Shown piece after piece: positions 21,214 through 36,651 of a stretch of 64,000 nucleotides of DNA (position 1 is the first letter of the stretch; each line of letters starts with the position of its first letter). The notes beneath the pieces were generated by a model, which had not been told where the DNA came from, did not search any database, and worked only from the letters and a program-made list of their open reading frames with translations. The position numbers and the translations under genes were made by a program. The stretch lies in the NCBI RefSeq assembly GCF_031583065.1, contig NZ_CP134053.1, positions 5,435,001 through 5,499,000 on the forward strand, written 5' to 3'. The stretch comes from Streptomyces sp. CGMCC 4.7035. Lineage in GTDB: Bacteria > Actinomycetota > Actinomycetes > Streptomycetales > Streptomycetaceae.

Positions 21214-22374
21214 TCAGACGAGCGCCCGGATGTCCTGCGGTGACGTCAACCGCTCGCGCCGCACGATCAGTTCGCGTCCCAGCACCAGCGCCCGGCGGGA
21301 CGCCGGTACCGGGTCGGGCAGGGTCGTGAGGTCCGTCAGATGGGCGAAGCCGATGATGCGGCGGATGATCTCGGTGCCCGCGAAGCCGACGGACTCCGTC
21401 CAGACGCGGCGCAGGAAGCGGTCGAGGTAGGCGTCGTCGAAGAAGGTGTCGACGCGGGCCGGCCACAGGCGGCGGAACTCCGCCTCGAACGCCTCCCAGG
21501 ACAGGCGGAGCTGGTCGCCGTGGTCGGTGAGGGTGCCGAGCGCGCGGGCCCGCTCCTCGGACACGAGCGCGTTGGCCCAGTACAGCCCGAGGTCGAAGCC
21601 GATCGGGCCGACGAAGGAAAACTCGGGGTCGAAGACCCGTACGACGTGCGCGCCGTCGCGTTCGCCGACCATGATGCTGCCGGTGTGCAGGTCGCCGTGG
21701 AGCAGGGACTGCGCACTGGTCATGAAGGTGTGGCGGAGGTCGGCCACCTCCGTGCGCAGCCGGGTGTCGGCGCGGAACTCGGCGGCCAAGTCGTCGAGTC
21801 CGGGGTGCCAGTGGTTGTGCTCGTGCTCGATGTACGGCTCAGACAGCACCACATCCTCGGTGATCTTGCACAGCTCCGGGTTGACGGAGGCGGCGATCAG
21901 CGCCTTGCGCTCGGCGGAGGGCATGCCGAAGTCGCTGGTGGCGAAGGAGAGCTGGGCGACGAGCTCACCGATGCGGGCCGAGGTGTGCGGGCCGTAGGAG
22001 CCGCCCTCGTTGAGGACCGTGCGCAGGACCCCCAGGTCGGACAGGTCCTCCATGACGAGGGCGTAGTTGTCGGCGTCGTAGCCGTGGATCGCGGGGATCT
22101 TGTCCGGGGCGACCTTGGCGAGCTGCTCGTAGGCGCGGGCCTCGGCGTCGGCGCGGTCGGGGCTCAGCGGCCAGGAGGGGCCCGCGACGCGGACCCACGG
22201 CAGGGCCTGCTTGACGGCGACGCTGCGGTTGCCGGCGGTGTCGGAGGCGAGGAACACGCGGTTCACGTTGCCGTCGGAGACCTCGCGGACGTGGATGTCG
22301 TCGATGTCGTCCCAGTGGCCGCGCTCGCGCAGGTAGGCGGGGACGTCCTCGGTCTCCAGGATGCGGTAGCCCAT
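21214..22374 (-). CDS. mtnK: S-methyl-5-thioribose kinase
   Basis: 386 residues, the usual size. Protein-kinase-like fold: VNRVFLASDTAGNRSVAVKQALPWVRVAG (ATP lysine region, about residues 38-66), catalytic loop SLLHGDLHTGSIMVG near 240 and metal motif VVRVFDPEFSFVGPIGFDLG just after. It phosphorylates methylthioribose to methylthioribose-1-phosphate, the substrate of MtnA at 28.8-29.8 kb. It is the last gene of a minus-strand operon with an ABC importer, so imported methylthioribose would be phosphorylated at once. ATG 22374 is 22 bases after the permease stop. Confidence 0.95.
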   Translation of the reverse strand: MGYRILETEDVPAYLRERGHWDDIDDIHVREVSDGNVNRVFLASDTAGNRSVAVKQALPWVRVAGPSWPLSPDRADAEARAYEQLAKVAPDKIPAIHGYDADNYALVMEDLSDLGVLRTVLNEGGSYGPHTSARIGELVAQLSFATSDFGMPSAERKALIAASVNPELCKITEDVVLSEPYIEHEHNHWHPGLDDLAAEFRADTRLRTEVADLRHTFMTSAQSLLHGDLHTGSIMVGERDGAHVVRVFDPEFSFVGPIGFDLGLYWANALVSEERARALGTLTDHGDQLRLSWEAFEAEFRRLWPARVDTFFDDAYLDRFLRRVWTESVGFAGTEIIRRIIGFAHLTDLTTLPDPVPASRRALVLGRELIVRRERLTSPQDIRALV

Positions 22375-22395
22375 CGTGTCGGTTTCCTCGTCGGG

Positions 22396-23442
22396 TCAGG
22401 CGGTGCGGCGCTTGGACAGGGTGAAGCTGAAGACCAGGGCGAGGATGAGGACCGCGCCCTCGACGACGTCCTGGGTGTAGTAGGGCAGGCCCTTGATCGT
22501 CAGGCCGGTGGTGATGATGCCGATCAGGACGGCGCCCAGGGCCGTGCCCCACACGTTCGGCCGGCCGCGGCCGAGGACCGAGGTGCCGACGAGTGCGACC
22601 GCGACCGCCTCCAGGAGCTGGGAGCTTCCGGCCGAGACGTCGCCCTGGCCGATGCGGGAGGCCAGGATGAGGCCGCCGACGGAGGCGAGGACGCCGGACA
22701 GGACGTACGCGAGCGCCCGGTAGGCGCCGACGCGGATGCCTGCCAGGCGGGCGGCCTCGGGGTTGGCGCCGATCGCGTACAGCACCCGGCCCCAGCGGGT
22801 GCGGGCGAGGAACACCCAGGCGGCGATCGTCAGCGCGGCGAAGATCAGCACGGAGACGGGCACCCCGAGGACCGTGCCGCGGTCGATGCGCAGGAAGCCC
22901 TCGGTGAACCGTCCGGGCGCCGTGGTGCCGTCGGACCGCGTCATACCGGGGGTGACGGACTGGCCGTCGACCAGGACGAGTTTGGAGCCCTGGATCACGA
23001 ACAGGGTGCCGAGTGTGGCCAGCATGTCGGGGATCTTCAGGACGACGATCAGCAGCGCGTTGAGCAGGCCCACGAGCGCGCCCGCCGCGAGGACGGCGAG
23101 GACGGCGACCGTGCCGACCTGGTTGTAGATCACCATCGTCTGGGCGGCGACGGAGACGCCGAGTCCGGCGACCGCGCCGACGGACATGTCCATTCCGCCG
23201 ATGGCCAGGGTGAGGGTGACGCCGAGGCCGAGGATCGCGGCGACGGAGACGTAGCGGAGGGTGTCGAGGAGCGTCGCCGACTCGCGGAACGACGGCTCGC
23301 TCAGCGCGAAGTACGCGAAGAGCGCGACCGTGACGAAGATGAAGCCGTACTTGATGACGGCGTTCTGGATGCGCGGGGCGGCGGGGGCGAGGGACGGGGT
23401 CGGTGTCTGCACGGCCGTGTCGGCGCTCTGGGTCGTGGTCAT
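22396..23442 (-). CDS. ABC importer permease, RbsC/sugar type (probable methylthioribose uptake)
   Basis: About 348 residues with eight to ten membrane spans (VIKYGFIFVTVALFAYFAL; VAAILGLGVTLTLAIGGMDMSVGA; AVLAVLAAGALVGLLNALLIVVLKI) and the cytoplasmic coupling loop GANPEAARLAGIRVGAYRALAYVLSG. Family: BPD_transp_2, monosaccharide importers. The ATG at 23442 has its own AGGAAAG site; an ATG at 23466 overlaps the ATPase stop as TGATG and is an alternative. Placement between the ATPase and mtnK is the reason to propose methylthioribose as solute. This is inferred. Confidence 0.88.
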   Translation of the reverse strand: MTTTQSADTAVQTPTPSLAPAAPRIQNAVIKYGFIFVTVALFAYFALSEPSFRESATLLDTLRYVSVAAILGLGVTLTLAIGGMDMSVGAVAGLGVSVAAQTMVIYNQVGTVAVLAVLAAGALVGLLNALLIVVLKIPDMLATLGTLFVIQGSKLVLVDGQSVTPGMTRSDGTTAPGRFTEGFLRIDRGTVLGVPVSVLIFAALTIAAWVFLARTRWGRVLYAIGANPEAARLAGIRVGAYRALAYVLSGVLASVGGLILASRIGQGDVSAGSSQLLEAVAVALVGTSVLGRGRPNVWGTALGAVLIGIITTGLTIKGLPYYTQDVVEGAVLILALVFSFTLSKRRTA

Positions 23443-23465
23443 GTCGGCTTTCCTGACGTCGGGCA

Positions 23466-25001
23466 TCAGACGGATGCCGAGATGGTCTGAATCACGCGGT
23501 CACGCTCGGCGTCCTCGCCGTAGGCGTCGAGGCGGATCTCTCCGGCGGCGAGCACGACGACCCGGTCGGCGACCTCCAGGACCTCGTCCACGTCCGCCGA
23601 CAGGACGAGGACCGCGGCGCCCTCGGCGGCCAGGGCCCGGGCGCGGCGGCCGATGTCGCGGCGCGCACCGATGTCCACGCCTCGGAACGGCTCGTCCAGG
23701 ATGAGGACGCGTGGGGTCTCGGCGAGCCAGCGGCCGACGACGACCTTCTGCTGGTTGCCGCCGGACAGCTCCTCGACGGTGCTGTGCTCGTCGCGGGCGA
23801 CGACGCCGAGGGCCTCGATGGTGTCGCGGCCCAGGGCGTCCTCGCGGGAGACGCTGACGAGCCCGGCCCGCGACAGGGACTTCAGGAACGGCAGCGAGAT
23901 GTTCTGCGCCAGCGACCAGCCGGGGACGAGGGCGTCGGCGTGCCGGTCCTCGGGGACGAGGTGGACTCCGTTCCGGATCGCGTCGGCGGGGCGGCGTGGG
24001 GCGTACGGCCTGCCGCCCAGTTCGAGCGCGCCCGTGGGGAAGGGTTCGGCGCCGAACAGGCCACGGGCCAGCTCGGTCTTGCCGGCGCCCAGCAGGCCGA
24101 CCACGCCGGTGACCTCGCCGGCGTGGATGTCGAGGTCCTGCGGGGTGTGGCCGGTGAGCAGCGGGACGCCGCGCAGGGAGAGGACGACTTCGCCCTGCGC
24201 GCCCTCCCGCTGCGGTCGTGCGGTGGTGGCCTCGTGTGCCTGGGCGAGCATGGCGCGCAGGGCGCTGTCCCAGTCGAAGGGCCGGGGCTGGTCCTCGGTG
24301 AGCCGGCCGTCGCGCAGGACGACCAGCCGGTCGGCGAGTGCGTCGATCTCGCCGAGCCGGTGGGAGACGTACAGGACCGCGATGCCGTCGTCGCGCATCC
24401 GTTCGACGAGCGCGAACAGGCGCTCCGCTTCGGCGGCGGAGAGCGCGGAGGTCGGCTCGTCGAGGATGAGCAGGCGTGGGCGGGTCGCCAAAGCCCTGGC
24501 CAGGATCAGCAGCTGGCGGTCGGAGATGCCGAGTTCGGTGACGTCCCGTTTGAGGACGGCGTCGCTCCAGCCGAGGTCGAGGGCGGCCTGGATCTCGCGG
24601 GCGCGGGCCAGGACGCGGCGGCTGTTCAGGAACGGGTTGCCCCGGGCCTGGGCCAGCTCTTCGAAGACCAGGTTCTCGGCGACCGTGAGGCCGGGCACGA
24701 TGCCCTCGCCGATGCGTTGGTGCACGGTCTGGATGCCCAGCCGGCGGGCGGCGAGCGGGGAGTGGAGGGCGGCGGGTGAGCCGCCGACCCGGACCTCCCC
24801 TCCGTGGTCGGTGTGGACGCCGGACAGGATCTTGATCAGTGTGGACTTGCCCGCGCCGTTCGCGCCGAGCAGCGCGACGACGCTGCCCGGGGCGATGTCC
24901 AGGGTGACGGAGGCCAGGACGGTCTTGCCGCCGAACGCCATGCTGACGTCCCGCAGGCTCACCGCCGGCACGGTGGGGTCGGTGGCGTCAGTGGGCGACA
25001 T
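23466..25001 (-). CDS. ABC importer ATPase, RbsA type, two nucleotide-binding domains
   Basis: 511 residues holding two tandem ABC domains. Domain 1: Walker A GANGAGKST (about residue 50), Walker B LLILDEPTSALS, switch His in VSHR. Its signature is degenerate: TELGISDRQ instead of LSxGxxQ. Domain 2: weak Walker A GLLGAGKTE, normal signature ELSGGNQQK, Walker B VLILDEPFRGVDIG. In RbsA-type proteins one site is commonly degenerate, but loss of the LSGGQ in domain 1 is worth noting. It overlaps the substrate-binding gene by 14 bases and powers the importer that ends with mtnK. Confidence 0.92.
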   Translation of the reverse strand: MSPTDATDPTVPAVSLRDVSMAFGGKTVLASVTLDIAPGSVVALLGANGAGKSTLIKILSGVHTDHGGEVRVGGSPAALHSPLAARRLGIQTVHQRIGEGIVPGLTVAENLVFEELAQARGNPFLNSRRVLARAREIQAALDLGWSDAVLKRDVTELGISDRQLLILARALATRPRLLILDEPTSALSAAEAERLFALVERMRDDGIAVLYVSHRLGEIDALADRLVVLRDGRLTEDQPRPFDWDSALRAMLAQAHEATTARPQREGAQGEVVLSLRGVPLLTGHTPQDLDIHAGEVTGVVGLLGAGKTELARGLFGAEPFPTGALELGGRPYAPRRPADAIRNGVHLVPEDRHADALVPGWSLAQNISLPFLKSLSRAGLVSVSREDALGRDTIEALGVVARDEHSTVEELSGGNQQKVVVGRWLAETPRVLILDEPFRGVDIGARRDIGRRARALAAEGAAVLVLSADVDEVLEVADRVVVLAAGEIRLDAYGEDAERDRVIQTISASV

Positions 25002-26085
25002 TGGGGATCCAGTCCGCGGTGCTGACCTGGGAGAGGTTCAGCGCGGGCAGCGCCGTGCGCAGCTGGTCCATGTTCTCGATCTTGTTCTTGCGCAGGAAGT
25101 CCTGGGTGATGGCGACGGCCGGGAACTGGACCGAGGACTTGTTCAGCTGACCGGCCAGTTCCAGGGCGGTCGTACGGACGACGGCGGCGCCCACCGCGGA
25201 CGGGTCGGTGCCCGCCGTGGCGGCCCACGGGCTGTCCTTGGCGGTCATGTTCTGGATGTCGGCATTGGAGACGTCCGCGCCGAACACCTTCACCTTGTCC
25301 TGAAGCTTCTTGTTCTGGACGGCGAGGACGGTGCCCTTGGCCAGCTCGTCATAGGGGGCGAAGACGCCGGTCACGTCGGAGTGCTGGGTGAGGGCGGCGG
25401 AGACCAGCGGCACGTTGTCGGTGGCCGTCGAGTCGGTGACCTTGCCGACCTTGAACTGCTGCTGCCAGCCGTTCGCGGCCACGACCTTCTTCCAGACGCC
25501 GTCACGCGCGTCGAGAGGGGCGAATCCCGCGACGTTGACGTAGCCGACCTTGGCGTTCTTGCCGAGCGTCTGGGTCATGACGTCGAGCGTGGCCTGGGCG
25601 ATGCTGGCGTCGTCCTGCGAGGTCTTGATGACCGACGTGTTCGTGGTGTCGACGTCGTAGACGACGACCTTGATGCCCTTCTTGACGGCCTCGTCGATCT
25701 CGGACTTGATCGTCGCCGGGAAGCCGTGGTCGATGATGATCGCCTGGGCGCCGGAGTTGATCGCCGAGGACAGGTCGGTGGCCTGCTTGGCGTTGTCGGC
25801 CTGGGCGTCGTACACGGTCAGGTCGATGCCGAGGGCCTTGGCCTGCGCCTTGGCACCGTTGCCCCACTGCTCGAAGTAGTCTCCGGCGCCACTCTGCCGC
25901 ACGAGCGCGACCTTGACCGTGCCCTTGTCGAACGGGGCGGGCTTCTTGCCGGTGGCGGCCGAGGCGGAGGCGGCCGTGTTGCCCGTGGTCTGCGAGGAGT
26001 TCGTCGACTGCGAGCAGCCCGCGAGGAGGAGGGCGGAGGCGGACGCCAGCGAGAGCGCGGCGAGAGGCAGACGGGTACGGGACAT
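24988..26085 (-). CDS. Periplasmic-binding-type lipoprotein, RbsB family (probable methylthioribose binding)
   Basis: 365 residues. Lipoprotein signal: ALSLASASALLLAGCSQS, Cys after LLAG. The mature domain is a type-I sugar-binding fold: VKVALVRQSGAGDYFEQWGNGAKAQAKALGIDLTVYDA, then AIIIDHGFPATIKSEIDEAVKKGIKVVVYD and VTGVFAPYDELAKGTVLAVQ. It catches the solute outside the membrane for the permease and ATPase that follow. First structural gene of the operon, preceded by a 150-base leader carrying a small peptide gene. Solute assignment rests on linkage to mtnK. Confidence 0.9.
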   Translation of the reverse strand: MSRTRLPLAALSLASASALLLAGCSQSTNSSQTTGNTAASASAATGKKPAPFDKGTVKVALVRQSGAGDYFEQWGNGAKAQAKALGIDLTVYDAQADNAKQATDLSSAINSGAQAIIIDHGFPATIKSEIDEAVKKGIKVVVYDVDTTNTSVIKTSQDDASIAQATLDVMTQTLGKNAKVGYVNVAGFAPLDARDGVWKKVVAANGWQQQFKVGKVTDSTATDNVPLVSAALTQHSDVTGVFAPYDELAKGTVLAVQNKKLQDKVKVFGADVSNADIQNMTAKDSPWAATAGTDPSAVGAAVVRTTALELAGQLNKSSVQFPAVAITQDFLRKNKIENMDQLRTALPALNLSQVSTADWIPNVAH

Positions 26086-26234: not shown

Positions 26235-26306
26235 TCAGCGACAGCGGGCTGTGGTCGACCGGAGCAAGTCCACGTACAGCCGCCGCACGAGCAGCAGCGT
26301 CTTCAT
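26235..26306 (-). CDS. 23-residue leader peptide of the methylthioribose uptake operon
   Basis: A short reading frame on the minus strand, starting MKTLLLVRRLYVDLL and ending TTARCR. The pattern LxxRxxVDLLR...CR is that of the small leader peptides found in Streptomyces ahead of sulfur-related transporter genes. It has no ribosome site, but the TTGACG/CATCAT promoter would place the transcript start at its own ATG, so it is probably leaderless. The penultimate Cys and an Arg-rich C-terminus suggest translation-coupled attenuation in response to cysteine or charged tRNA supply. Function is inferred; existence is supported by pattern and position. Confidence 0.7.
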   Translation of the reverse strand: MKTLLLVRRLYVDLLRSTTARCR

Positions 26307-26312
26307 ACGCAG

Positions 26313-26533: not shown

Positions 26534-27133
26534 ATGACCCTGCTGACGACGTGGCCCGAGTCCGGCCCCGAGACCGTGGTGCGCCGCACCTCCGACCCGG
26601 CCGAGATCGCGGCCGCGCTCGCCCCGCTCGGGGTGCGCTACGAGCAGTGGCCGATCCGCGAGGACGTCCCCGCGGATGCCGACAGCGACTCCGTGTTCGC
26701 CGCGTACGGCCCGGAGATCGACAAGCTCAACGCCGAGGAGGGGTTCACGACGGTCGACGTCCTGGGCCTGCACCCGAGCGACGACCCCGAGTACCCGGTG
26801 AAGGCGAAGGCCGCGCGCGAAAAGTTCCTTCAGGAGCACACGCACGACGACGATGACGAGGTCCGCTTCTTCGTCTCCGGCGCCGGGATCTTCTATCTGC
26901 ACGTGAACGGCGAGGTGCACGCCGTGCTGTGCGAGAAGGGTGACCTGCTGGGCGTGCCGCGCGGTACGACCCACTGGTTCGACATGGGCACGAAGCCGTC
27001 GTTCACCGCGATCCGTTTCTTCCACGAGGAGGACGGCTGGATCGGCAACTTCACCGGCTCCACCATCGCCACCCGCTTCCCCGACTACGACACCATCGCG
27101 GCGGGCTACGAGCAGGACAAGGGCGCCGCGTGA
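26534..27133 (+). CDS. mtnD: Acireductone dioxygenase
   Basis: 199 residues, cupin fold. Metal site: [24 protein letters not shown] gives HxH and the Glu at about residues 103-109, and [12 protein letters not shown] gives the distal His. It oxidises the acireductone made by MtnC to 2-keto-4-methylthiobutyrate, which a transaminase turns into methionine; with another metal the same family yields an off-pathway product. First gene of the mtnD-mtnC-mtnB operon. ATG 26534 has TGGAG eight bases upstream. Its stop overlaps the mtnC start as GTGA. Confidence 0.95.
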
Positions 27134-27855
27134 CCCTGCGGTTCGAGGTGGACGCCGTGGTGCTCGACATCGAGGGCACCACGAGCGCCACGGGCTTCGT
27201 CGTGGACGTGCTCTACCCTTACTCGCGCTCTCGGTTCGGAGCACTGCTCTCGGAGCGGAGCGGTGATCCGGAGGTGGCGCGGGCGGTCGCGCAGGTGCGG
27301 GAGCTGCTCGGCGACCCGGACGCGGACGCCGCGGGGATCGAGAAGGCGCTGGGTGCCTGGCTCGACGAGGACCGCAAGGCCACCCCCCTGAAGACCCTTC
27401 AGGGGATCATCTGGTCGGAGGGGTTCGCCCGGGGCGACCTCGTCTCGCACTTCTACGAGGACGTGGTGCCGGCGCTGCGCGCGTGGCACGCGGCGGGCGT
27501 ACGGCTGCACGTGTACTCGTCGGGTTCGGTGGCCGCGCAGCGCGCGTGGTTCCGTTCCAGCCCCGAGGGCGACCTGCTGCCGCTCGTCTCCGGTCTGTAC
27601 GACACGGAGAACGCGGGGCCGAAGCAGGAGCCGGAGTCGTACCGGAGGATCGCGGAGGCGACCGGCACGGCGGCGGACCGCCTCCTGTTCCTCTCCGACC
27701 GCCCGGGTGAACTGGACGCCGCGCGGGAGGCGGGCTGGCACGCCGTCGGCATCCGGCGCCCGGGAGAGCCGTACTACGAGCAAGGCGTCGGCGACCACGC
27801 GCAGGCGGGGACGTTCGACGAGATCAGCGTCATCAGTTCAAGGAGCACCACGTGA
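27130..27855 (+). CDS. mtnC: Enolase-phosphatase E1
   Basis: 241 residues, HAD superfamily. Motif [23 protein letters not shown] carries Asp and Glu in place of the usual DxD, as in MtnC; motif II Ser in [16 protein letters not shown]; Lys in [19 protein letters not shown]; motif [19 protein letters not shown]. It enolises and dephosphorylates diketo-methylthiopentyl phosphate to the acireductone substrate of MtnD. The GTG start overlaps the mtnD stop, and its own stop overlaps the mtnB start, so all three are translationally coupled. Confidence 0.95.
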
Positions 27856-28460
27856 CCGACGGGATCAGCGCATTCGACCTGGAGGAGGCGGGGGCCGTAC
27901 TCGCCGCCGAGTCCGCCCGCTTCGCGGCCTTCGGCTGGATGCGCGGCACGTCCGGGAACCTGTCCACGGTGCTCTCCCGTGACCCGCTGCGGCTCGCGGT
28001 CACCGCCAGCGGCCACGACAAGGGCGAACTGACGCCCGCGGACGTGGTGCTGGTGGACGGCCACGGAGCCGCCGTCGACGGCGGCAGGCCGTCCGCCGAG
28101 GCCGAGCTGCACGCGCGCGTGGCCGCGCTCACCGGCGCCGGGGCCGTGGTGCACGTGCATACGGTGGCGTCCGTGGCGATGGGCCGCCGCGAGCCGGGCG
28201 GGATCGTCTTCAAGGACCTGGAGATGCTGAAGGGTGTCGGCCAGCCGGCGCACGACGTCGAGGTGACACTGCCGGTCATCGCCAACAGCCAGGACATGAA
28301 GGTACTGGGGGATCGCCTGGAGAAGGCGCGTGACCCTCGGATGCCCGCGGTGGTCGTCGCGGGGCACGGGCTGTACGTGTGGGGGGCGGACCCCCGGCAG
28401 GCCCGGCACCACACCGAAGTGGTGGAGTGGCTCCTGGAGTTGGAGCTGGCGCAGCGGTAG
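27852..28460 (+). CDS. mtnB: Methylthioribulose-1-phosphate dehydratase
   Basis: 202 residues, class-II aldolase/AraD fold. Motifs: FGWMRGTSGNLSTVLS (substrate phosphate), TASGHDKGELTPADVVLVD, AVVHVHTVASVAMG with two zinc-binding His, and a third His in VVAGHGLYVWGADPRQARHHTEVVEWLLELE. It dehydrates methylthioribulose-1-phosphate to the diketone used by MtnC. Last gene of the operon; it converges on mtnA across an array of 38-bp repeats. Confidence 0.94.
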   Translation: MTDGISAFDLEEAGAVLAAESARFAAFGWMRGTSGNLSTVLSRDPLRLAVTASGHDKGELTPADVVLVDGHGAAVDGGRPSAEAELHARVAALTGAGAVVHVHTVASVAMGRREPGGIVFKDLEMLKGVGQPAHDVEVTLPVIANSQDMKVLGDRLEKARDPRMPAVVVAGHGLYVWGADPRQARHHTEVVEWLLELELAQR

Positions 28461-28763: not shown

Positions 28764-29792
28764 CTTCAGCCGGTCCCCGGGCAGTTCCCCGGCCGACACC
28801 TCCAGCACGCCCCGTTCCGTCACCAGCCCGGTGACCAGGCGCCCGGGCGTCACGTCGAACGCCGGGTTGTGCCCGCGCGAGGCCGCGGGAGCGGTCCGCA
28901 TGCCCGACCACTCCAGTACCTCGTCCTCGCCCCGCAGTTCGATGTGGATGTCGTCCCCTGTGGCGGTCGAGAGGTCCACCGTCGTCGTCGGGGCCGCCAC
29001 CAGGAACGGCACCTCCGCATACGCGCAGGCCAGTGCGACACCCACCGTGCCGACCTTGTTCGCCGTGTCGCCGTTCGCCGCGATGCGGTCCGCGCCGACG
29101 ATCGCCGCGTCGACCTCGCCCCGCAGGATGGTGCCCGCCGCCGCCCCGTCCGCCTGGACGTAGTGCGGGATGCCCTCCTGGACCAACTCCCAGGCGGTCA
29201 GCCGGGACCCCTGCAACAGGGGGCGCGTCTCGTCCGCGTACACCACCTCCAGCAGGCCCCGCGTGTGCAGTTCGCGGATGACGCCGAGCGCCGTGCCCCA
29301 ACCCGCCGTCGCCAGCGCGCCCGTGTTGCAGTGCGTCAGCACCCGCAGCGGACGGTCCACGCCCAGCCGCTTGATCAGCCAGTCCGCACCGTGCGCCCCC
29401 ATCGCCCGGTTCGCCTCGACGTCCTCGCGCTGCACCGCGGCGGCCTCCTCCAGAACCGCGTCGAGCCCCTCGTCGAAACGGGTCATGACCCGGTCCACGC
29501 ACACCATGAGGTTGACGGCGGTGGGCCGGGCCTCACGGATGCGGGCGACGGCCGCGCGCACCTCGTCGGTCGTCCAGCCCTCGCGCTCGCCCTGCGCCAG
29601 CGCTATCGCGACGCCGTACGCGCCCGCCGCCCCGATCGCGGGGGCACCGCGCACGACGAGCCGCTGGACCGCATCGATCAGGGTGTCCACATCGCGGACA
29701 TCCACTGTCTCGGTGCGATGCGGGAGCACGGTCTGGTCGATCAGCGCGAGGCTGCTTCCGGTCCAGTCGACGGCGCGCAGTTCATGGGACAT
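28761..29792 (-). CDS. mtnA: S-methyl-5-thioribose-1-phosphate isomerase
   Basis: 343 residues, eIF2B-like aldose-ketose isomerase. Motifs: VQRLVVRGAPAIGAAGAYGVAIAL near residue 45, LTHCNTGALATAGWGTALGVI with the catalytic Cys near 155, and VGADRIAANGDTANKVGTVGVAL with the catalytic Asp. It converts methylthioribose-1-phosphate to methylthioribulose-1-phosphate for MtnB. ATG 29792 has CAGGAG nine bases upstream; the frame is open further 5' without a site. It stands apart from mtnBCD and is divergent from the nucleoside importer operon, sharing a 326-base control region. Confidence 0.95.
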   Translation of the reverse strand: MSHELRAVDWTGSSLALIDQTVLPHRTETVDVRDVDTLIDAVQRLVVRGAPAIGAAGAYGVAIALAQGEREGWTTDEVRAAVARIREARPTAVNLMVCVDRVMTRFDEGLDAVLEEAAAVQREDVEANRAMGAHGADWLIKRLGVDRPLRVLTHCNTGALATAGWGTALGVIRELHTRGLLEVVYADETRPLLQGSRLTAWELVQEGIPHYVQADGAAAGTILRGEVDAAIVGADRIAANGDTANKVGTVGVALACAYAEVPFLVAAPTTTVDLSTATGDDIHIELRGEDEVLEWSGMRTAPAASRGHNPAFDVTPGRLVTGLVTERGVLEVSAGELPGDRLK

Positions 29793-29957: not shown

Positions 29958-30023
29958 GTGCTGCTCATGATGCGCCGCTTCCTCGACCACGGCCGCTGCG
30001 CCGGCGACAGCTGTCGACGCTGA
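29958..30023 (+). CDS. Possible 21-residue leader peptide ahead of the nucleoside importer operon
   Basis: A GTG-started frame with an excellent GAAGGAGG site four bases upstream; it starts LLMMRRFLDHGRC and ends DSCRR (two cysteines, arginine-rich). The stop lies 95 bases before the lipoprotein gene. The palindrome CGACAGCTGTCG covers its last codons and could fold into a hairpin. Upstream, ACCTGYATCCC is repeated 21 bases apart. No family is recognised; the strong ribosome site is the main support. Confidence 0.45.
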   Translation: MLLMMRRFLDHGRCAGDSCRR

Positions 30024-30118: not shown

Positions 30119-31171
30119 ATGCACCGTAGATCCCGCCGCACCGCGCAACTCGCCGCCGCCACCGCGCTCCTGGTCGCCGGCGCCACCGCCTGCAACGCGG
30201 CCGCGAAGAACGACGCCTCCAGCAGCGGCACCAAGAGCGGCGGCACGTCGTTCACGCTCGTCACCCCGGACGGCGTCGGGCAGAACGAGTTTCTGAAGCT
30301 TGCCGTCAACGGGGTCAAGGCCGCGGCGAAGGCGCACAACGGGACGCAGAAGGTGTACGAGTCCACGGACACCGCCTCCCAGCAGCAGAACGTGCAGGCC
30401 GCCGTGGACGCCAAGCCGGACGTCATCGTGCTGGTCGGCTTCGAGTTCGCCGACATCGTCGCGCAGCAGGCCCAGAAGAACCCGAAGCAGCAGTTCCTGA
30501 TCGTCGACGCCTGCACCACGAAGACGTTCAAGAATGTCAGCTGCGCGGTCTTCCGCGAGCACGAAGGCGTGTATCTCGCGGGCGCCGAGGCCGGACTCCT
30601 CAGCAAGAGCGGCAAGGTCGGCGCGGTGGACGTGCTCGACACACCCCAGTTCCGCCGCTACAGCGACCCCTTCGCGGCCGGCGCCAAGAAGGTCGCCCCC
30701 AAGACGCAGACCGCCACCCGTTTCGTCGGCGGCCAGTCCCCGTTCGACGACTCGGCCCGCGCCAAGGAGCAGGCGAACACGCTGCTGTCCAACGGCACCG
30801 ACGAGATCATGGCGGCGGCCGCGGCCGGCAACTACGGCGTCTTCGAGGCGGCCAAGGCCAAGGGCGCGTTCGCGTACGGCGTCGACGTCAACCAGTGCCC
30901 CTCCTCTCCCGGCACGGTCGTCGACAACGTCATCAAGCGCACCGACGTCGCCGTGCAGAAGGGCATCGACGCGGTCCTCGGCGGCAAGGCGGGCACCACC
31001 GTCTCGTACGGCCTGAAGGAGGGCGGCATCAGTCTGACGGGGCTGGAGTCCGGCGTGGACTCCTCCCAGTGCGTCATCGCGAAGCACAAGGACGTCCTGA
31101 CGAAGGTCGAGGCGCTGCGCGACCAGATCGTGTCCGGTGAGCTGACGGTCGATGACCCCGCGGCAAGCTGA
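30119..31171 (+). CDS. BMP-family substrate-binding lipoprotein (nucleoside type)
   Basis: 350 residues. Lipoprotein-type signal: LAAATALLVAGATACNAA, Cys after ATA. The mature domain is of the basic membrane protein (BmpA/TmpC/PnrA) family, which binds purine nucleosides: SFTLVTPDGVGQNEFLKLAVNG, DVIVLVGFEFADIVAQQAQKNP, FREHEGVYLAGAEAGLLSKSGKVG. It feeds the importer encoded by the next three genes. ATG 30119 has GGAAGG upstream. The gene overlaps the ATPase gene by 20 bases, showing operon organisation. Confidence 0.9.
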   Translation: MHRRSRRTAQLAAATALLVAGATACNAAAKNDASSSGTKSGGTSFTLVTPDGVGQNEFLKLAVNGVKAAAKAHNGTQKVYESTDTASQQQNVQAAVDAKPDVIVLVGFEFADIVAQQAQKNPKQQFLIVDACTTKTFKNVSCAVFREHEGVYLAGAEAGLLSKSGKVGAVDVLDTPQFRRYSDPFAAGAKKVAPKTQTATRFVGGQSPFDDSARAKEQANTLLSNGTDEIMAAAAAGNYGVFEAAKAKGAFAYGVDVNQCPSSPGTVVDNVIKRTDVAVQKGIDAVLGGKAGTTVSYGLKEGGISLTGLESGVDSSQCVIAKHKDVLTKVEALRDQIVSGELTVDDPAAS

Positions 31172-32681
31172 CACCGACGTCGCGGTCGAGCTCCGGGGAA
31201 TCACCAAGCGGTTCCCCGGCACGCTCGCCAACGACGCCGTCGACCTGACCGTGCGCCGCGGTGAGATCCACGCCCTGATGGGCGAGAACGGCGCGGGCAA
31301 GTCCACCCTGATGTCGGTCCTTTACGGCATGGAGCGCCCCGACTCCGGTTCGATCCGGATCGACGGGCGCGAGGTGACGTTCGGCGGCCCCGGTGACGCC
31401 CTGGCCGCCGGGCTCGGCATGGTCCACCAGAGCTTCAAGCTGTTCGACTCGCTGACGGTGGCGGAGAACGTGGTGTTCGCGGCCGAGCCACGCCGTTTCG
31501 GCCTGGTGGACCGGGCGGCGGCCCGCCGCCGGGTACGCGAACTCACCGAGGAGCACGGGCTCGCCGTCGACCCGGACGCTCGTGTGGGCGACCTGTCGGT
31601 CGGGCTGCGGCAGCGGGTGGAGATCCTGAAGCTGCTGCACCGCGGCGCCCGTACGCTCATCCTCGACGAGCCGACCGCCGTGCTCACCCCGGCCGAGGCC
31701 GACGCTCTGTTCGCGGTGCTCAAGTCGCTGGCGGGGCAGGGCCGTACGGTCATTCTGGTCACGCACAAGCTGCGCGAGGTCCTGGAGGGCAGCGACCGGG
31801 TGACCGTGCTGCGGGACGGCCGGGTGGTGGCGCGGCTGCGCACCGCCGACACCTCCGCGGACGAGATCGCGGCGGCGATGACCGGCCGCGCGGTGGAGCT
31901 GGACCGGATCCACGCGCCCGGAACGCCGGGTGACGTGGTGCTCGATGTGGCGGGTCTGGCCGGCGACGCCGTGCACGACGTGGACCTCACCGTCCGCGCG
32001 GGCGAGATCGTCGGCATCGCGGGCGTCGCCGGCAACGGGCAGAGCGAGCTGATCGAGGCGCTGGCCGGGCTGCGGCCGGTGCGCGGCGGCCGGGTCCGGC
32101 TGAAGGGCGAGGACATCACGCACGCCTCCGCGACCGAGCGGCGCGCGCGGGGCCTCGCGTACGTCCCCGAGGACCGGCACGCGGTCGGAACGGCGCCCGC
32201 CGCGACCGTGGCGGACAACCTGGCGATGGGTCACCACCGTACGGCGCTGGCCACGCGCCGCGGTCTGCTGCCGCCCACGGCCGTGCGCGCCCACGCGGCG
32301 CGTCTGATCGAGCGGTTCGGCATCAAGGCGTCCACCCCGCAGGTGCCCGCCTCCGCGCTGTCCGGCGGCAATCTCCAAAAGCTGCTGATCGGCCGCGAAC
32401 TCGCCCATGAGGCCCCGCTGCTGCTGGTGGAGCAGCCGACGCGTGGGGTGGACATCGGCGCGATCCAGAACATCCACGACCAGTTGATCGCCTACCGCGA
32501 CGCGGGGCACGCCGTGCTGCTGGTCTCCGCCGAGTTGAGCGAGATCCGGGGGCTCGCGGACCGGGTGCTGGTGATGTACGAGGGCCGGATCACGGCCGCG
32601 TACCCGAAGGGCGAGGCGGACGAGCGGACGCTGGGCCTCGCCATGGCGGGCGCCGCCGTCCCGGTGGAGGCCGGAGAGTGA
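31152..32681 (+). CDS. Nucleoside ABC importer ATPase (two ABC domains)
   Basis: 509 residues. Domain 1: Walker A GENGAGKST, signature LSVGLRQRVEILK, Walker B LILDEPTAVLTP, switch THK. Domain 2: degenerate Walker A GVAGNGQSE, signature ALSGGNLQKLLIGRE, Walker B LLLVEQPTRGVDIG. This is the pattern of the NupO/YufO-type partner of BMP lipoproteins, where only one site hydrolyses ATP. It overlaps the lipoprotein gene by 20 bases and its stop is one base from the permease start. Cytoplasmic side of the membrane. Confidence 0.93.
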   Translation: MTPRQADTDVAVELRGITKRFPGTLANDAVDLTVRRGEIHALMGENGAGKSTLMSVLYGMERPDSGSIRIDGREVTFGGPGDALAAGLGMVHQSFKLFDSLTVAENVVFAAEPRRFGLVDRAAARRRVRELTEEHGLAVDPDARVGDLSVGLRQRVEILKLLHRGARTLILDEPTAVLTPAEADALFAVLKSLAGQGRTVILVTHKLREVLEGSDRVTVLRDGRVVARLRTADTSADEIAAAMTGRAVELDRIHAPGTPGDVVLDVAGLAGDAVHDVDLTVRAGEIVGIAGVAGNGQSELIEALAGLRPVRGGRVRLKGEDITHASATERRARGLAYVPEDRHAVGTAPAATVADNLAMGHHRTALATRRGLLPPTAVRAHAARLIERFGIKASTPQVPASALSGGNLQKLLIGRELAHEAPLLLVEQPTRGVDIGAIQNIHDQLIAYRDAGHAVLLVSAELSEIRGLADRVLVMYEGRITAAYPKGEADERTLGLAMAGAAVPVEAGE

Positions 32682-32682
32682 C

Positions 32683-33720
32683 ATGAACCGAATAACAGGA
32701 GCACTCCGCTCCCCCGTCGTCTTCTCCGTCCTGGCCGGAGTCGTCATCGGCGCGCTGTTCCTGCTGGGCACGGGCGCGGACCCGGTGACGGCGTACGGCG
32801 CCGTCCTCACCGGGTCGCTGGGCACCGACGGCATCGGCTCCACGCTGAGCACCGGCACCAGCGTGCTGGGGCTCGCGCTGGCCCTGGCCATTCCGTTGCG
32901 GGCGGGACTGATCAACCTCGGCGGCGACGGGCAGATGGTCCTCGGCGGCATGGCGGCCGCGGTCACCGGACTGTACGTACCACTGCCCGCGCCCCTCGCC
33001 ACCGTCGCGGCCGTGCTCGCGGGCATGGCCGCCGGCGCCGGGTACGCGGCCCTGGCCGCCCTGTGCGAGAACCACCTCGGGGTGCCGCTGCTGGTGAGCA
33101 GCCTGCTGCTGAGCTATCCGGCGGTCTCGTTCGCCTCGTATCTGGCCCGCTATCCGCTCAAGGAGCCGGGCTCCAGCCTGCCGCAGACGCGGCAGCTGCC
33201 GGAGGGCGTGGCGCTGCCCGCGTTCGGCGACTCGACCGTGACGGCAGGGCTGGTCCTCGTGGCGCTCGCGGCGGCCGCGTACTGGTTCGCCGACCGGCGC
33301 ACGGCGATCGGGTACGAGATCCGGATGACGGGTCTCAACGCCCGCTTCTCCGCGTACGCGGGTGTCGAGCGCCGGGGGCTGACGCTGCGGCTGCTGGCGG
33401 TCTCGGGCGCGCTGGCCGGACTCGTGGGCGCCGTCGGGGTGCTGAGTTTCCCGTACCGCTTCCTGGACGGCGCGCTCACCGCGCCCGGCTACACCTGGAC
33501 GGGACTGACCGCCGCGCTGCTCGCGGGCGCGGCACCGGTGGGCACGGTCGTCGCGTCGTTCTTCTTCGCCGTCCTCCAGGTCGGCGGGCTCTCGATGGAG
33601 CGCACGACCGAGGTACCGCGCGAGCTGACCCAGGTGCTGCAGGCCGTCGTGATCGTGTTCCTGGCGGCGCGGCTGAGGTTCCCCGCCCGGTGGTTCAACC
33701 GGCAGAAGGAGGCCGTGTGA
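32683..33720 (+). CDS. Nucleoside ABC importer permease, subunit 1
   Basis: 345 residues with about eight to nine membrane spans (VFSVLAGVVIGALFLLGTG; VLGLALALAIPLRAGLINLGGDGQMVLGGMAAAV; ATVAAVLAGMAAGAGYAALAA) and the coupling loop EIRMTGLNARFSAYAGVERR. The family is the BPD_transp_2 permease found with BMP lipoproteins. It pairs with the next gene as a heterodimer. ATG 32683 starts one base after the ATPase stop; its stop overlaps the next start as TGATG. Confidence 0.92.
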   Translation: MNRITGALRSPVVFSVLAGVVIGALFLLGTGADPVTAYGAVLTGSLGTDGIGSTLSTGTSVLGLALALAIPLRAGLINLGGDGQMVLGGMAAAVTGLYVPLPAPLATVAAVLAGMAAGAGYAALAALCENHLGVPLLVSSLLLSYPAVSFASYLARYPLKEPGSSLPQTRQLPEGVALPAFGDSTVTAGLVLVALAAAAYWFADRRTAIGYEIRMTGLNARFSAYAGVERRGLTLRLLAVSGALAGLVGAVGVLSFPYRFLDGALTAPGYTWTGLTAALLAGAAPVGTVVASFFFAVLQVGGLSMERTTEVPRELTQVLQAVVIVFLAARLRFPARWFNRQKEAV

Positions 33721-34586
33721 TGTTCTTCGACTCCGATCTGCTGATGTCGGCGCTGCGCGCGCTGACGCCCATCCTGCTGGCCGCGCTCGGCGGCGCGCTG
33801 TGCGAGCGCGCGGGTGTGTTCAACATCGGCCTCGAAGGCATGATGCTGCTCGGCTGCTTCACGTCCGTCGCCACGAGCTGGTTCACCGGCAGCCCTTGGC
33901 TCGGGGTGCTCGCGGCGGCGCTCGCCTCGGCCGCGTACTCCCTGGTCCTGGCCGTCGGCGCGGTGACCCTGCGCGGGGACGCGGTCGTGCTCGGCATCGC
34001 CATGAATCTGCTGGCCGTCGGACTGACCAGCTTCCTACTGCGTACGGTGTTCGGTGTGCAGGGCACCTTCGACGATCCCACGCTGGCGGGGCTCCCGCTG
34101 GTCGGTGGCTTCTCGCCGCTCGCGTACCTGGCGTGGGCCGCGGTGGCCGCGGCCGCCGTGCTGCTCTCGCGGCATGTGTGGGGCCTCAGGCTGCGCGGGG
34201 TCGGCGAGGCCCCGGACGCCGCGGCCACGCTCGGGGTGAGCCCGGCGCGGTACCAGTACGGGGCCGTGCTCGTCTCGGGCGTGCTGTGCGGGCTCGCCGG
34301 GGCGCAGCTCGCCCTGGGGAACGTCACGCTGTTCTCGGAGAACATGACCGCGGGACGCGGCTGGATCGCCGTCGTCGCGGTCATGCTCGGCCGTGCGGCG
34401 CCGCTCGGTGTGCTGCTGGCCGCGCTGCTGTTCGGGCTCGCCGAGGCGGCCGGATTCCGGCTGCAGGGCCTCGGTCTGCCGCAGCAGGCGACCGATGCCG
34501 CGCCGTACGTGGTCACGCTCGGCGCCCTCTTCCTGACGACGGCGCGCCGCCGTCGCCGTACCCGACCCACTGGAGTCGCCTCATGA
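33720..34586 (+). CDS. Nucleoside ABC importer permease, subunit 2
   Basis: 288 residues, seven to eight membrane spans. Family signatures LGGALCERAGVFNIGLEGMMLLGCF near the N-terminus and VVAVMLGRAAPLGVLLAALLFGLAEA near the C-terminus are typical of the second permease of nucleoside importers; coupling loop LRGVGEAPDAAATLGVSPARYQYGAV. The ATG shares its A with the preceding stop, and its own stop overlaps the phosphorylase start (ATGA), so transporter and enzymes are made together. Confidence 0.93.
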   Translation: MFFDSDLLMSALRALTPILLAALGGALCERAGVFNIGLEGMMLLGCFTSVATSWFTGSPWLGVLAAALASAAYSLVLAVGAVTLRGDAVVLGIAMNLLAVGLTSFLLRTVFGVQGTFDDPTLAGLPLVGGFSPLAYLAWAAVAAAAVLLSRHVWGLRLRGVGEAPDAAATLGVSPARYQYGAVLVSGVLCGLAGAQLALGNVTLFSENMTAGRGWIAVVAVMLGRAAPLGVLLAALLFGLAEAAGFRLQGLGLPQQATDAAPYVVTLGALFLTTARRRRRTRPTGVAS

Positions 34587-35344
34587 CGCAGGACCTGTCA
34601 CCCGTCACCCGCGTTCCCCGCACCGGACTTCCCCCATACGCCGTCGTGGTCGGGGACCCGGCGCGCGCGGCGGCCGTCGCCGCGCTGCTCGACGGGGCCC
34701 AGGAGGTCTCCTACCACCGCGAGTACCGGGTGTTCAGCGGGAGTTGGAAGGGTGTGCCGGTGACGGTCGCCTCGCACGGGGTGGGTGCCCCGGGCGCGAT
34801 CCTGCTCTTCCAGGAGCTGGCGGACGCGGGGGTCCGCACGTTTCTGCGGTTCGGTACGGCGGGCGCGATGAAGCCGGGGATCGGCGACGGCGACCTGGTG
34901 ATCGCGGAGGCGGCCGTGCGCGACGACGGTGTCACCCAGCAGCTGCTGCCGCCCGAGTACCCGGCGGTGTCCGCGCCCGAGGCGGTGTTCGCCCTTCAGC
35001 GTGCGGCCCGCGAGGTGGGCGCGCCGCACCACCGCGGGATCGTGTGGACGCGGGCGGCCTTCCAGCCCGGGCTGATCCCGCTCGACGCGTACGAGAAGGC
35101 GGGCCTCGCCGCGATCGAGATGGAGCTGTCCGCGCTGCTGGTGACCGCCTCGTTGCGGGGGCTGGTGGCGGGCGGCGTGCTCGTCGTGGACGGCGCCAAC
35201 GCCGACGAACTGCTCGACGAGGAGGCGTCCTTCTCGACGGGGGCCTACGACCCGCACCGTGAGGTCGTGGCCCAGGGCGTGGAGCGGGGCTCGGTCGTTG
35301 CGCTGGAGGCGCTGCGGCTGCTGGCGGAAGGGGACGTGGCATGA
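34583..35344 (+). CDS. Nucleoside phosphorylase, NP-I (uridine/purine phosphorylase) family
   Basis: 253 residues. NP-I motifs: VVGDPARAAAVAALL (phosphate loop), VASHGVGAPGAILLFQELADAGVRTFLRFGTAGAMKPGIGDGDLVIAEAA (base and phosphate site) and the ribose-binding AIEMELSALLVTASLRG near residue 177. It splits a nucleoside with phosphate into base and ribose-1-phosphate. In this operon it follows a nucleoside importer and precedes an MTA/SAH-type deaminase, so methylthioinosine is a plausible substrate, giving hypoxanthine and methylthioribose-1-phosphate for MtnA. A general uridine or purine activity is the alternative. Substrate is inferred only. Confidence 0.85.
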   Translation: MTQDLSPVTRVPRTGLPPYAVVVGDPARAAAVAALLDGAQEVSYHREYRVFSGSWKGVPVTVASHGVGAPGAILLFQELADAGVRTFLRFGTAGAMKPGIGDGDLVIAEAAVRDDGVTQQLLPPEYPAVSAPEAVFALQRAAREVGAPHHRGIVWTRAAFQPGLIPLDAYEKAGLAAIEMELSALLVTASLRGLVAGGVLVVDGANADELLDEEASFSTGAYDPHREVVAQGVERGSVVALEALRLLAEGDVA

Positions 35345-36651
35345 GCGAGCGCGTCGATCTGCTGGTGCACGGCGGCGACGTCCTGACGGTCGACGACGCG
35401 GGCACCGTCGTACGGGAGGGCGCCGTGGCCGTCCGCGGCGGGGAGATCCTCGCGGTGGGCCGGGCCGAGGAGCTGCGCGCCCGGTACACGGCGGAGGAGT
35501 ACCTCGACGCCGGAGGCTGTCTCGTACTGCCGGGGCTCGTCAACACCCACACGCACCTGGCGATGACGCTGCTGCGCGGCTGCGCCGACGACGTCACGCT
35601 GCAGGGCTTCCTGGAACGCGTGCTGCCCCGGGAGGCCGAGCTGCTGTCGCCGAAGAACGTGGGCGCGGCGGTGCGGGTCGCGATCGCGGAGAGCGTACGG
35701 GCCGGGGTGACCTCCGCGCTCGACATGTACTGGTTCCACGAGACCGCCGAGCAGGTCGCGCGGGACGCGGGGTGGCGGCTGCTGACCGGGCCCACTTTCA
35801 TGGACGTTCCGGACTCCCCCGACGGCATGGCCTATGAGGACCGCTTGGAGTGGGCGCGCCGGGACCTGGCCGCGCGGACCGCGACACGGCCCGGTTTCCG
35901 GCCCGTGCTGTTCGCGCACTCGACCTACACCCTGAGCCCCGACCAGCTCACCGAGATCGCCGCGCTGGCGCGGGAGTTCGGGGCGCTGCTGCACATCCAC
36001 GCCGCGGAGAACGCGCACGAGGTCGCCACCGTCGAGGTGCGGTGGGGCAAGCGGCCGGTGGAACTGCTCGACTCGCTCGGCCTGCTCGGTCCCGACCTGC
36101 TGCTCGCGCACGCGGTCGACCTGACCGGTCCGGAGATCGCGGCGCTGGCCCATACGGGCACCTCGGTGGCGCACTGTCCGGTGTCCAACCTCAAGCTGGG
36201 CTGCGGAATCGCACCGGTGCCGCGGCTGCTGAGCGCGGGGGTGACCGTCGGGCTCGGCACGGACGGGGCGGTCAGCTCCAACACGCTGGACGTGCTGGGC
36301 GCCGTGCGGCAGGCGGCGCTGGTGCACAAGGCGGCCGGCGATCCCACGGCGGTCGGTGCCGAGCAGGCGGTGCGGATGGCGACGATCGAGGGGGCGCGCG
36401 CGCTCGGGCTCGGCGATCGGCTGGGCTCGCTGGAGCCGGGCAAGCGGGCCGACCTGATCGTGCTCGACCTCGGCGGGCCGCATCTGCGTCCTCGGCACGA
36501 CGTGTGGTCGACGCTGGCGTACGCGGCGCACTCCGCGGATGTCCGGGACACGGTCGTCGACGGCCGGGTCCTGATGCGGCAGCGGGTGCTGACGACGCTC
36601 GACGAGGCGGCGGCGCTGGCGGATCTGGAGGCGCTGGAGGGGCTCGCCTGA
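35341..36651 (+). CDS. Amidohydrolase: 5'-methylthioadenosine/S-adenosylhomocysteine deaminase type
   Basis: 436 residues. TIM-barrel amidohydrolase with metal ligands in LVNTHTHLAMTLLRG (about residue 70), LLHIHAAENAHE, SVAHCPVSNLKLGCG and VGLGTDGAVSSNT (catalytic Asp). The stretch MTLLRGCADDVTLQGFLERVLPREAELLSP resembles MtaD enzymes, which deaminate MTA or SAH to the inosine form. Combined with the preceding phosphorylase, this gives a route MTA to methylthioinosine to methylthioribose-1-phosphate. Other aminohydrolases of this clade (guanine-like, triazine) cannot be excluded. ATG overlaps the phosphorylase stop by four bases; last gene of the operon. Confidence 0.87.
   Translation: MSERVDLLVHGGDVLTVDDAGTVVREGAVAVRGGEILAVGRAEELRARYTAEEYLDAGGCLVLPGLVNTHTHLAMTLLRGCADDVTLQGFLERVLPREAELLSPKNVGAAVRVAIAESVRAGVTSALDMYWFHETAEQVARDAGWRLLTGPTFMDVPDSPDGMAYEDRLEWARRDLAARTATRPGFRPVLFAHSTYTLSPDQLTEIAALAREFGALLHIHAAENAHEVATVEVRWGKRPVELLDSLGLLGPDLLLAHAVDLTGPEIAALAHTGTSVAHCPVSNLKLGCGIAPVPRLLSAGVTVGLGTDGAVSSNTLDVLGAVRQAALVHKAAGDPTAVGAEQAVRMATIEGARALGLGDRLGSLEPGKRADLIVLDLGGPHLRPRHDVWSTLAYAAHSADVRDTVVDGRVLMRQRVLTTLDEAAALADLEALEGLA

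Follow-up and report, generated by a model that had tools for sequence, protein, structure and literature searches.

What does a Streptomyces genome do with two importers of different families set among its methionine salvage genes? The question is raised by a block at positions 21214-36651 of a 64-kb stretch of Streptomyces sp. CGMCC 4.7035 (the whole stretch analyzed, hereafter the window, is G000:C1:5435001-5499000, from a genome of 8.09 Mb in a single contig). A first-pass annotation had proposed two routes by which methylthioribose (MTR) or methylthioadenosine (MTA) from outside the cell would be salvaged here, and our analysis supports this reading, in that linkage of BMP-type and Rbs-type importers to mtn genes recurs in other genomes, with MTA and its deaminated form methylthioinosine (MTI) as predicted substrates. 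We consider it likely that the block is an accessory sulfur-scavenging system with two doors, in which an RbsABC-type importer would admit MTR, a BMP-type importer would admit a methylthioribose nucleoside, and a leader would switch uptake. We observed gene identities, gene linkage, leader conservation, enzyme replacement and residue changes, and from these we infer the substrates, the direction of transport and attenuation as the leader mechanism.

Gene content and proposed pathway

The block consists of four transcription units, and its ends are the mtnK stop and the deaminase stop. Along the forward strand the order is mtnK-rbsC-rbsA-rbsB (minus strand), mtnD-mtnC-mtnB (plus), mtnA (minus) and BMP-ATPase-permease-permease-phosphorylase-deaminase (plus). 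Matches to hidden Markov models (HMMs) placed every gene named by the first-pass annotation at its given coordinates, and the tight stop-start junctions described for the BMP-phosphorylase-deaminase operon are indeed present, with gaps of -20, +1, -1, -4 and -4 nucleotides (nt); gaps are -4 and -4 nt in mtnDCB and +21, -1 and -14 nt in the mtnK operon. The features, including two small open reading frames (ORFs) and the regulator at the block edge, are as follows, with scores in bits.

21214..22374, minus: mtnK, S-methyl-5-thioribose kinase (TIGR01767, 419.9 against a cut-off of 275; solved relative 2olc, methylthioribose kinase, E 1e-69)
22396..23466 (start possibly 23442), minus: RbsC-type permease (PF02653, 139.1; no curated sugar-specific cut-off reached)
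23466..25001, minus: RbsA-type double ATPase (PF00005 in two stretches)
24988..26085, minus: RbsB-type lipoprotein, predicted MTR-binding protein
26235..26306, minus: leader-type small ORF before the rbsB operon, 23 amino acids, one Cys as next-to-last residue (NF042934, E 4e-5)
26534..27133, plus: mtnD, acireductone dioxygenase (PF03079, 96 against a cut-off of 27, match at G000:C1:5461714-5462043, window 26714-27043; no NCBIfam match at E up to 1e-10)
27130..27855, plus: mtnC, enolase-phosphatase (TIGR01691, 223.4 against 128.1)
27852..28460, plus: mtnB, methylthioribulose-1-phosphate dehydratase (TIGR03328, 172.1 against 137.05)
28761..29792, minus: mtnA, MTR-1-phosphate isomerase, island paralogue (TIGR00512, 424.6 against 279)
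29958..30023, plus: leader-type small ORF before bmp, 21 amino acids, two Cys, GTG start after AAGGAGGACGC (intergenic alignment and pattern search)
30119..31171, plus: BMP/PnrA-type nucleoside-binding lipoprotein (PF02608, 150.9 against 24.1)
31152..32681, plus: BMP importer ATPase (PF00005)
32683..33720, plus: BMP importer permease 1 (PF02653, BPD_transp_2)
33720..34586 (start possibly 33717), plus: BMP importer permease 2 (PF02653, BPD_transp_2)
34583..35344, plus: hexameric-type (PNP/Udp/DeoD-like) nucleoside phosphorylase, putative MTI/MTA phosphorylase (PF01048, 130.9)
35341..36651, plus: MTA/S-adenosylhomocysteine (SAH)-type deaminase-like amidohydrolase (PF01979, 214.2; 4f0r, MTA/SAH deaminase, E 1e-78)
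36759..37430, plus: GntR/FCD regulator at the block edge (PF07729, PF00392)

MtnK, MtnA, MtnB, MtnC and MtnD are all present, and by every one of these enzymes the block belongs to the aerobic methionine salvage pathway. We propose that the RbsABC-type importer (door 1) takes up free MTR, which MtnK would phosphorylate to MTR-1-phosphate, and that the BMP-type importer (door 2) takes up a methylthioribose nucleoside, MTA and/or MTI; the amidohydrolase would deaminate it, and the hexameric phosphorylase would split the product into hypoxanthine and MTR-1-phosphate. Both doors would feed the island MtnA (a second, core-type mtnA lies elsewhere in the genome, at G000:C1:7174212-7175243), after which MtnB, MtnC and MtnD would yield the keto acid of methionine. 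The final amination would fall to an enzyme encoded elsewhere, and the MtnE step is described as feasible by several aminotransferases (PMC3228920).

Door 1: an RbsABC-type importer with MtnK

The RbsB-type lipoprotein is 38% identical over 313 residues to 4ry8, the solved 5-methylthioribose transporter protein of Thermotoga lettingae, which is its nearest relative by both sequence and fold. Here the Rbs genes and mtnK form one operon, and they are neighbors in 7 of the 13 further mtnK loci that were retrieved. The 4ry8-homologous lipoprotein and the mtnK linkage together strongly indicate an RbsABC-type importer of the MTR class, with MTR as its predicted cargo. Door 1 is not new, since an RbsABC-type methylthioribose importer, mtrACB, was predicted earlier in Bacillus cereus and gammaproteobacteria (PMC3228920), and one binding protein (4ry8) has been solved. 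The first-pass statement that importers for these compounds are poorly described needs correction for the RbsABC type; for the BMP type, the open-licence literature searched contained no MTA-specific importer.

Door 2: BMP-type importers recur beside mtn genes

Both the Pfam Bmp domain and the PnrA fold place the second importer in the BMP/PnrA family, and it falls below the NCBIfam cut-offs for a "B6 ABC transporter" (NF047927-NF047930; 61.2 of 400, 448.9 of 670, 163.6 of 400 and 137.2 of 465 bits). The absence of conserved linkage would have spoken against the two-route proposal; instead, both operons turned out to be linked with mtn genes across several actinomycete families, and the association of BMP-type importers with mtnA recurs in Alphaproteobacteria, Bacillota and Mycoplasmatota. 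Gene calls at relatives were made by GC3 score, or by tblastn for six loci (L113, L114, L125, L148, L155 and L173).

Permease 2 shares 54-58% identity with the permeases of three loci (L116-L118), where mtnA-like, hydrolase and mtnC genes come next. In L117 and L118, from one other actinomycete family, and in L116, from another, the importer genes lead into an mtnA-like gene, then one for a nucleoside hydrolase, and mtnC and mtnB, with gene ends that mostly overlap; mtnK lies within the importer operon in L117 and L118, where the BMP lipoprotein gene itself is beyond the fetched stretch. The hydrolase is an IUNH-type enzyme and scores 147-151 bits against UriH, below the cut-off of 450. In Actinophytocola algeriensis (L133), the order is importer, phosphorylase, DszC/SfnB-like enzyme, mtnA-like, mtnC and mtnB (the last seen as two tblastn pieces), with mtnD close by. 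Unrelated cleaving enzymes are thus swapped beside one importer, and we therefore argue that the importer delivers a methylthioribose nucleoside. The DszC/SfnB-like gene between the phosphorylase and the mtnA-like gene (L133:11640-12797) belongs to a sulfur-acquisition type, at 285 and 262 bits, under the cut-offs.

A wider survey by permease alignment kept the best 80 BMP loci, and its proportions are those of the listed loci. Among these matches, mtnA is found in the fetched flanks of 22 of 80, i.e., 9 of 9 in Streptomyces and 13 of 71 elsewhere, the 13 coming from Actinomycetota, Alphaproteobacteria, Bacillota and Mycoplasmatota; none of the 22 loci with tandem hydrolases has mtnA. Devosia faecipullorum (L148) and an alphaproteobacterial metagenome-assembled genome (L173) hold BMP, deaminase and punA genes (PunA by HMM) near mtnA-mtnK and Rbs-type importer genes. 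In three loci of Erysipelotrichaceae type and Mycoplasmatota (L203, L204, L209), a BMP importer stands with a phosphorylase, a class II aldolase-like gene and mtnA, an arrangement that resembles a dihydroxyacetone phosphate (DHAP) shunt with its own nucleoside importer.

The phosphorylase and the deaminase

The best solved relatives of the phosphorylase are 3mb8, a purine nucleoside phosphorylase (PNP; 5e-38), and Plasmodium PNP (about 1e-34). Residues R45, R88, M183, E184 and D206, which are catalytic, phosphate and base residues in the Plasmodium enzyme (for R88 we assume the role), are kept in 31 of 31 block-type copies. The position of the His that holds the 5'-OH is hydrophobic (Val, Ile or Leu) in all 31; here it is Val8, and its pairing with a His was read directly in the HMMER alignment to 3mb8. 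For the phosphorylases of L127 and L129, one alignment and a gapless count from the GDP motif put a His at the Val8 position, and a larger alignment puts their N-termini elsewhere (a gap and a Leu), so that this control depends on the alignment. The block enzyme is under the cut-offs for uridine phosphorylase (TIGR01718, 150.2 of 280.3 bits) and DeoD (TIGR00107, 63.9 of 232.25). The earlier contrast of an "NP-I rather than MTAP-type" enzyme was loosely worded, as MTA phosphorylase (MTAP) belongs to the NP-I superfamily too; the real contrast is between a hexameric PNP-like and a trimeric MTAP-like enzyme. The deaminase is close to the solved 4dyk/4gbd, which we take to be the Pseudomonas enzyme. 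MTA or MTI is in our judgment probably the substrate of door 2.

Genes for a small MsrP/YedY-like molybdopterin oxidoreductase and an FAD/NAD reductase come after the deaminase gene in two sister Streptomyces (L058:17989-19342 and L063:17884-19354), and genes of similar size, matched by size only, occupy this position in L060, L064 and L075. The pair in L058 and L063 is perhaps a sulfoxide reductase that admits oxidized MTA or MTI to the pathway.

Small cysteine-containing ORFs precede both importer operons

Alignment of the mtnA-bmp intergenic region demonstrated a conserved short ORF with a Shine-Dalgarno sequence at 29958-30023, and an ORF of the same make lies upstream of rbsB on the opposite strand (26306-26235). 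Neither ORF figures in the first-pass annotation. The two share paired Arg, a hydrophobic-Asp step, Arg, and Cys near the stop, and a loose pattern built on these features finds only these two sites in the whole 64 kb. Across 34 Streptomyces loci, a search of the 450 nt upstream found the pattern at 18 of 18 rbsB and 22 of 26 bmp genes, and before none of the mtnD (0/29), mtnA (0/27) or phosphorylase (0/32) genes. The four bmp misses are L052, L057, L074 and L193; the L057 ORF is present in the alignment, one residue off the pattern, and L057 and L193 share their coordinates and probably represent a single genome that entered the count two times. Because the relatives were scanned with a pattern derived from the pair of ORFs in the window, the 44 loci of the positive class are not independent.

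Before other genes of these loci the pattern occurs in only 2 of 462 cases, a count that includes orthologues and operon-internal genes and excludes genes with less than 300 nt upstream. The two genes encode the dimethylsulfone monooxygenase SfnG (628.2 bits against a cut-off of 382.95) and an SsuA-family sulfonate-binding protein (199.6 against 163.5). Since the same type of leader is found before sulfur-scavenging genes, both importer operons are independently supported as sulfur-scavenging. An SfnG gene with such a leader lies about 2.4 kb from the block mtnD in L060 (L060:14502-15623).

The rbsB leader matches the whole of NF042934, "putative leader peptide" (cis_reg_atten), at 23.1 bits, under the cut-off of 27, and the bmp leader has no NCBIfam match. 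Leader peptides with runs of Cys codons are described as predicted upstream of cys operons in mycobacteria and others, without terminators (PMC1262725). We propose that the short ORF switches both importer operons, so that uptake would rise when sulfur amino acids are scarce.

A riboswitch between mtnA and bmp was considered and rejected: the longest RNA-like conserved block is the small ORF. At a relaxed threshold, Rfam gave three weak matches over 26000-30200, far under the gathering scores. A second conserved block upstream of the leader ORF (29827-29862), which may form a small hairpin and has no Rfam match, could be a promoter or operator. By eye, the two intergenic alignments revealed no shared GntR/FCD operator (no motif statistics were used).

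The block is accessory and modular

The suggestion that the block may be accessory was borne out, and we class it as accessory. In a fixed draw of 121 Streptomyces genomes (overlapping with a separate draw of 393 genomes; protein-query searches scored the best 6, 14 or 22 candidates per genome), a close phosphorylase with at least 74% identity is present in 22, a count that leaves out G094 (a fragment) and five genomes with low-scoring matches. The deaminase (E up to 1e-100) is found in 20 genomes, all within the phosphorylase set (Fisher 7e-21), as are all 11 genomes with MtnK over cut-off (6e-10) and 18 of the 28 with mtnD over cut-off (5e-11); this co-occurrence far exceeds chance, in tests that ignore kinship.

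Twenty fetched loci show nested layouts. Ten contain mtnK and Rbs genes; among these, L047 lacks rbsC and has shortened forms of mtnK and rbsA. Others lack mtnK-Rbs (L058, L059, L060 and L057, whose contig is short; so do L074/L075, outside the twenty), have only the phosphorylase and deaminase (L063, L064), or the phosphorylase alone (L045, L053); L061 and L062 carry mtnDCB, then a different gene (assigned to MFS by Pfam in L062), and then phosphorylase and deaminase. A further Streptomyces locus from a class-wide draw (L110) contains mtnK-Rbs, mtnDCB and mtnA and no door 2, so MtnK is not tied to the phosphorylase. Because of this locus, and because 4 of the 22 phosphorylase genomes are without mtnD, we regard the two routes as modules.

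The glpD gene lies on one side in 13 of the 20 fetched loci and gntR on the other in 14, with both in 12. The site in L073 holds other genes with an mtnA, and L077 holds remnants; the GntR/FCD regulator is present at these sites where the block is missing or reduced, and so is probably a core gene. Carriage on plasmids was considered and rejected: among 72,556 plasmid records, 82 matched the phosphorylase, all at less than 60% identity and none over 80% of its length.

Several features of the site and its surroundings were recorded alongside. The remnants in L077 (G094) are fragments of mtnK, mtnA and phosphorylase at the usual site, and L123 (G356) has mtnK and permease fragments beside a full-length phosphorylase and deaminase. 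A tandem array at window 28527-28762 (unit about 36-38 bp, about 6 copies) lies between the converging mtnB and mtnA. Approximately 6 kb from the block, Rfam places a Streptomyces-metH RNA at window 15283-15403 (minus strand), followed by an ORF of 1190 amino acids at 11761-15333 (minus), which from the name of the RNA we take to be metH.

Alternative explanations

Several observations weigh against the two-door reading. The mtnA-like proteins of L117 and L133 are under the TIGR00512 cut-off (220.9 and 185.5 of 279 bits), and against the subfamily model NF004326 (cut-off 271) the former passes at 272.8 and the latter reaches 269.3. Among the BMP matches listed, 3 of 11 single-hydrolase loci have mtnA, and the closest outside BMP relatives, found in Naasia and Agreia (L130-L132) and most similar in sequence to L117, pair the importer with a hydrolase and have flanks that hold no mtn gene. 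The phosphorylase occurs without the deaminase in L133, L045 and L053, and the deaminase reaches no NCBIfam equivalog cut-off (MTA/SAH deaminase NF012037, 230.7 of 779 bits). The position of Tyr160, described as critical for MTI use in Plasmodium PNP (PMC3885546), is occupied by Phe in all 31 block-type copies and in each of 12 in a separate alignment, and Val73 of that enzyme is Leu in the block phosphorylase. Outside Streptomyces the leader pattern is found in 1 of 7 rbsB loci and 0 of 11 bmp loci.

Some of these points would suit an alternative that we regard as unlikely and place second, namely that door 2 is for general scavenging of purine nucleosides (inosine, guanosine, adenosine) and shares its site with methionine salvage genes by chance. 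The change at Tyr160 fits it, as does the binding of ordinary nucleosides by BMP relatives; in L129, genes for an 8-oxoguanine deaminase and a RihC-like hydrolase accompany a phosphorylase of the same family, and the phosphorylase in L145, L148, L173 and L209 is PunA by HMM, not MTAP or MTI phosphorylase. Chance, however, does not sit well with mtnA linkage in 13 of the 71 listed BMP loci outside Streptomyces, spread over four phyla, or with single operons that combine an mtnA-like gene with hydrolase and mtnK, or with phosphorylase. The phosphorylase has also lost the 5'-OH His, and the leader ORF is of a type seen before sulfur-scavenging genes.

A role for the block mainly in disposing of 5'-deoxyadenosine and 5-deoxyribose, by-products of radical S-adenosylmethionine (SAM) enzymes, with methylthio compounds as minor substrates, seems improbable as well and ranks after purine scavenging. 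Homologues of MtnK and MtnA are described as acting on 5-deoxyribose compounds in the DHAP shunt (PMC10986504), the deaminase resembles the 5'-deoxyadenosine deaminase model (340.4 bits, under a cut-off of 522), and L203 shows a BMP-phosphorylase-aldolase-mtnA layout of the shunt type. Against this, 18 of the 22 phosphorylase genomes have mtnD, an enzyme of the methylthio branch, as part of the block, the leader ORFs and the DszC/SfnB-like enzyme of L133 point to sulfur, and 4ry8 is titled a methylthioribose transporter protein.

The preferred two-door reading extends to MTA made inside the cell. In a search of the whole source genome, no MTAP was over cut-off (TIGR01694, best 83.3 of 274.85 bits, the PunA gene), nor any MTA/SAH nucleosidase (TIGR01704, best 37.6 of 73.8, an MqnB-like gene), and the door 2 enzymes may therefore serve the cell's own MTA too. 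The genome has four genes with PF01048: PunA, the block phosphorylase, one that is HpnG-like and the MqnB-like gene; these last two names, and those of their neighbors (a squalene-hopene-cyclase-like gene beside the first, MqnD after the second), are our presumption from the sequences. MTAP is over cut-off in 117 of the 121 Streptomyces genomes and in 20 of the 22 with the phosphorylase, so the enzymes are not simply an MTAP substitute. Compensation for MTAP loss was considered, and we do not claim it: the phosphorylase is in 2 of 4 MTAP-less and 20 of 117 other genomes (Fisher p 0.15). That the deaminase and phosphorylase serve internal MTA only, in place of a lost MTAP, with the BMP importer carrying something else, is the least probable alternative: it would suit the source genome, and also L061 and L062, which keep mtnDCB, phosphorylase and deaminase and have another gene in place of the BMP importer, but it runs against those 20 MTAP-bearing genomes, the overlap of importer and enzyme genes, and the loci L116-L118, in which the cleaving enzyme is a different one and the importer still accompanies mtnA-like genes.

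Implications

Methylthioribose is described as excreted by Escherichia coli (PMC3228920) and MTA by Prochlorococcus under phosphate limitation (PMC11698098), and because of this the two compounds may be shared natural sulfur sources. If the two-door reading is correct, the existence of a nucleoside door reserved for MTA would mean that such compounds are traded, not just lost, and a group of BMP importers that currently carry default names would gain a substrate. We give an even chance to the broader proposal that BMP importers with a deaminase and hexameric phosphorylase, or with a nucleoside hydrolase and MtnK, form an undescribed, widespread class that imports MTA-type nucleosides as a sulfur source, controlled in Streptomyces together with the MTR importer by a class of Cys-containing leaders that marks sulfur-scavenging operons generally. 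The leader ORF would be a sequence marker for listing the sulfur-limitation regulon of Streptomyces from genomes alone, and the source genome, with no MTAP over cut-off, offers a natural test of the route in which deamination precedes phosphorolysis.

Comparison with known systems

The enzymes are of known types, and what seems undescribed is the second door and the proposed switch before both doors. Door 1 resembles mtrACB and 4ry8 in being an RbsABC-type importer that adjoins mtnK; it differs in that a leader ORF stands before rbsB, a second importer of another family is present, and Rfam matched no SAM riboswitch within the 64-kb window. Door 2 shares fold and Pfam family with the BMP/PnrA nucleoside importers, whose nearest solved members carry guanosine, inosine and adenosine, and unlike known members it is linked to methionine salvage genes.

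An unrelated operon with the same mtnABCD chemistry, mtnA-B-D-C-MTAP, is found in some other Streptomyces (L065, L066; in L068, mtnA-B-D-C with no MTAP match there). There MTAP replaces the deaminase and phosphorylase, no such importers adjoin, and the mtn proteins are only about 35-53% identical to those of the block. An ATP-grasp gene precedes such MTAP-type operons (L065:5782-6987, L067:6487-7689), and L066 has a gene of like size (by size only).

Plasmodium PNP, described as hexameric and known to use MTI (PMC3885546), is of the same hexameric family as the block phosphorylase and has R45, R88, M183, E184 and D206 in common with it, whereas in the block enzyme the 5'-OH His, Tyr160 and Val73 are replaced by Val/Ile/Leu, Phe and Leu, respectively. 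The closest parallel in route is Pseudomonas aeruginosa, for which an MTA deaminase and an MTI phosphorylase are reported (Guan 2011, 2012, cited in PMC6302742), and where, as proposed here, deamination is followed by phosphorolysis to MTR-1-phosphate and hypoxanthine. The block differs from it in that its phosphorylase is PNP/Udp/DeoD-like, of the hexameric type, and not MTAP-like, and in that the two enzymes are coupled to an importer and to mtnABCD.

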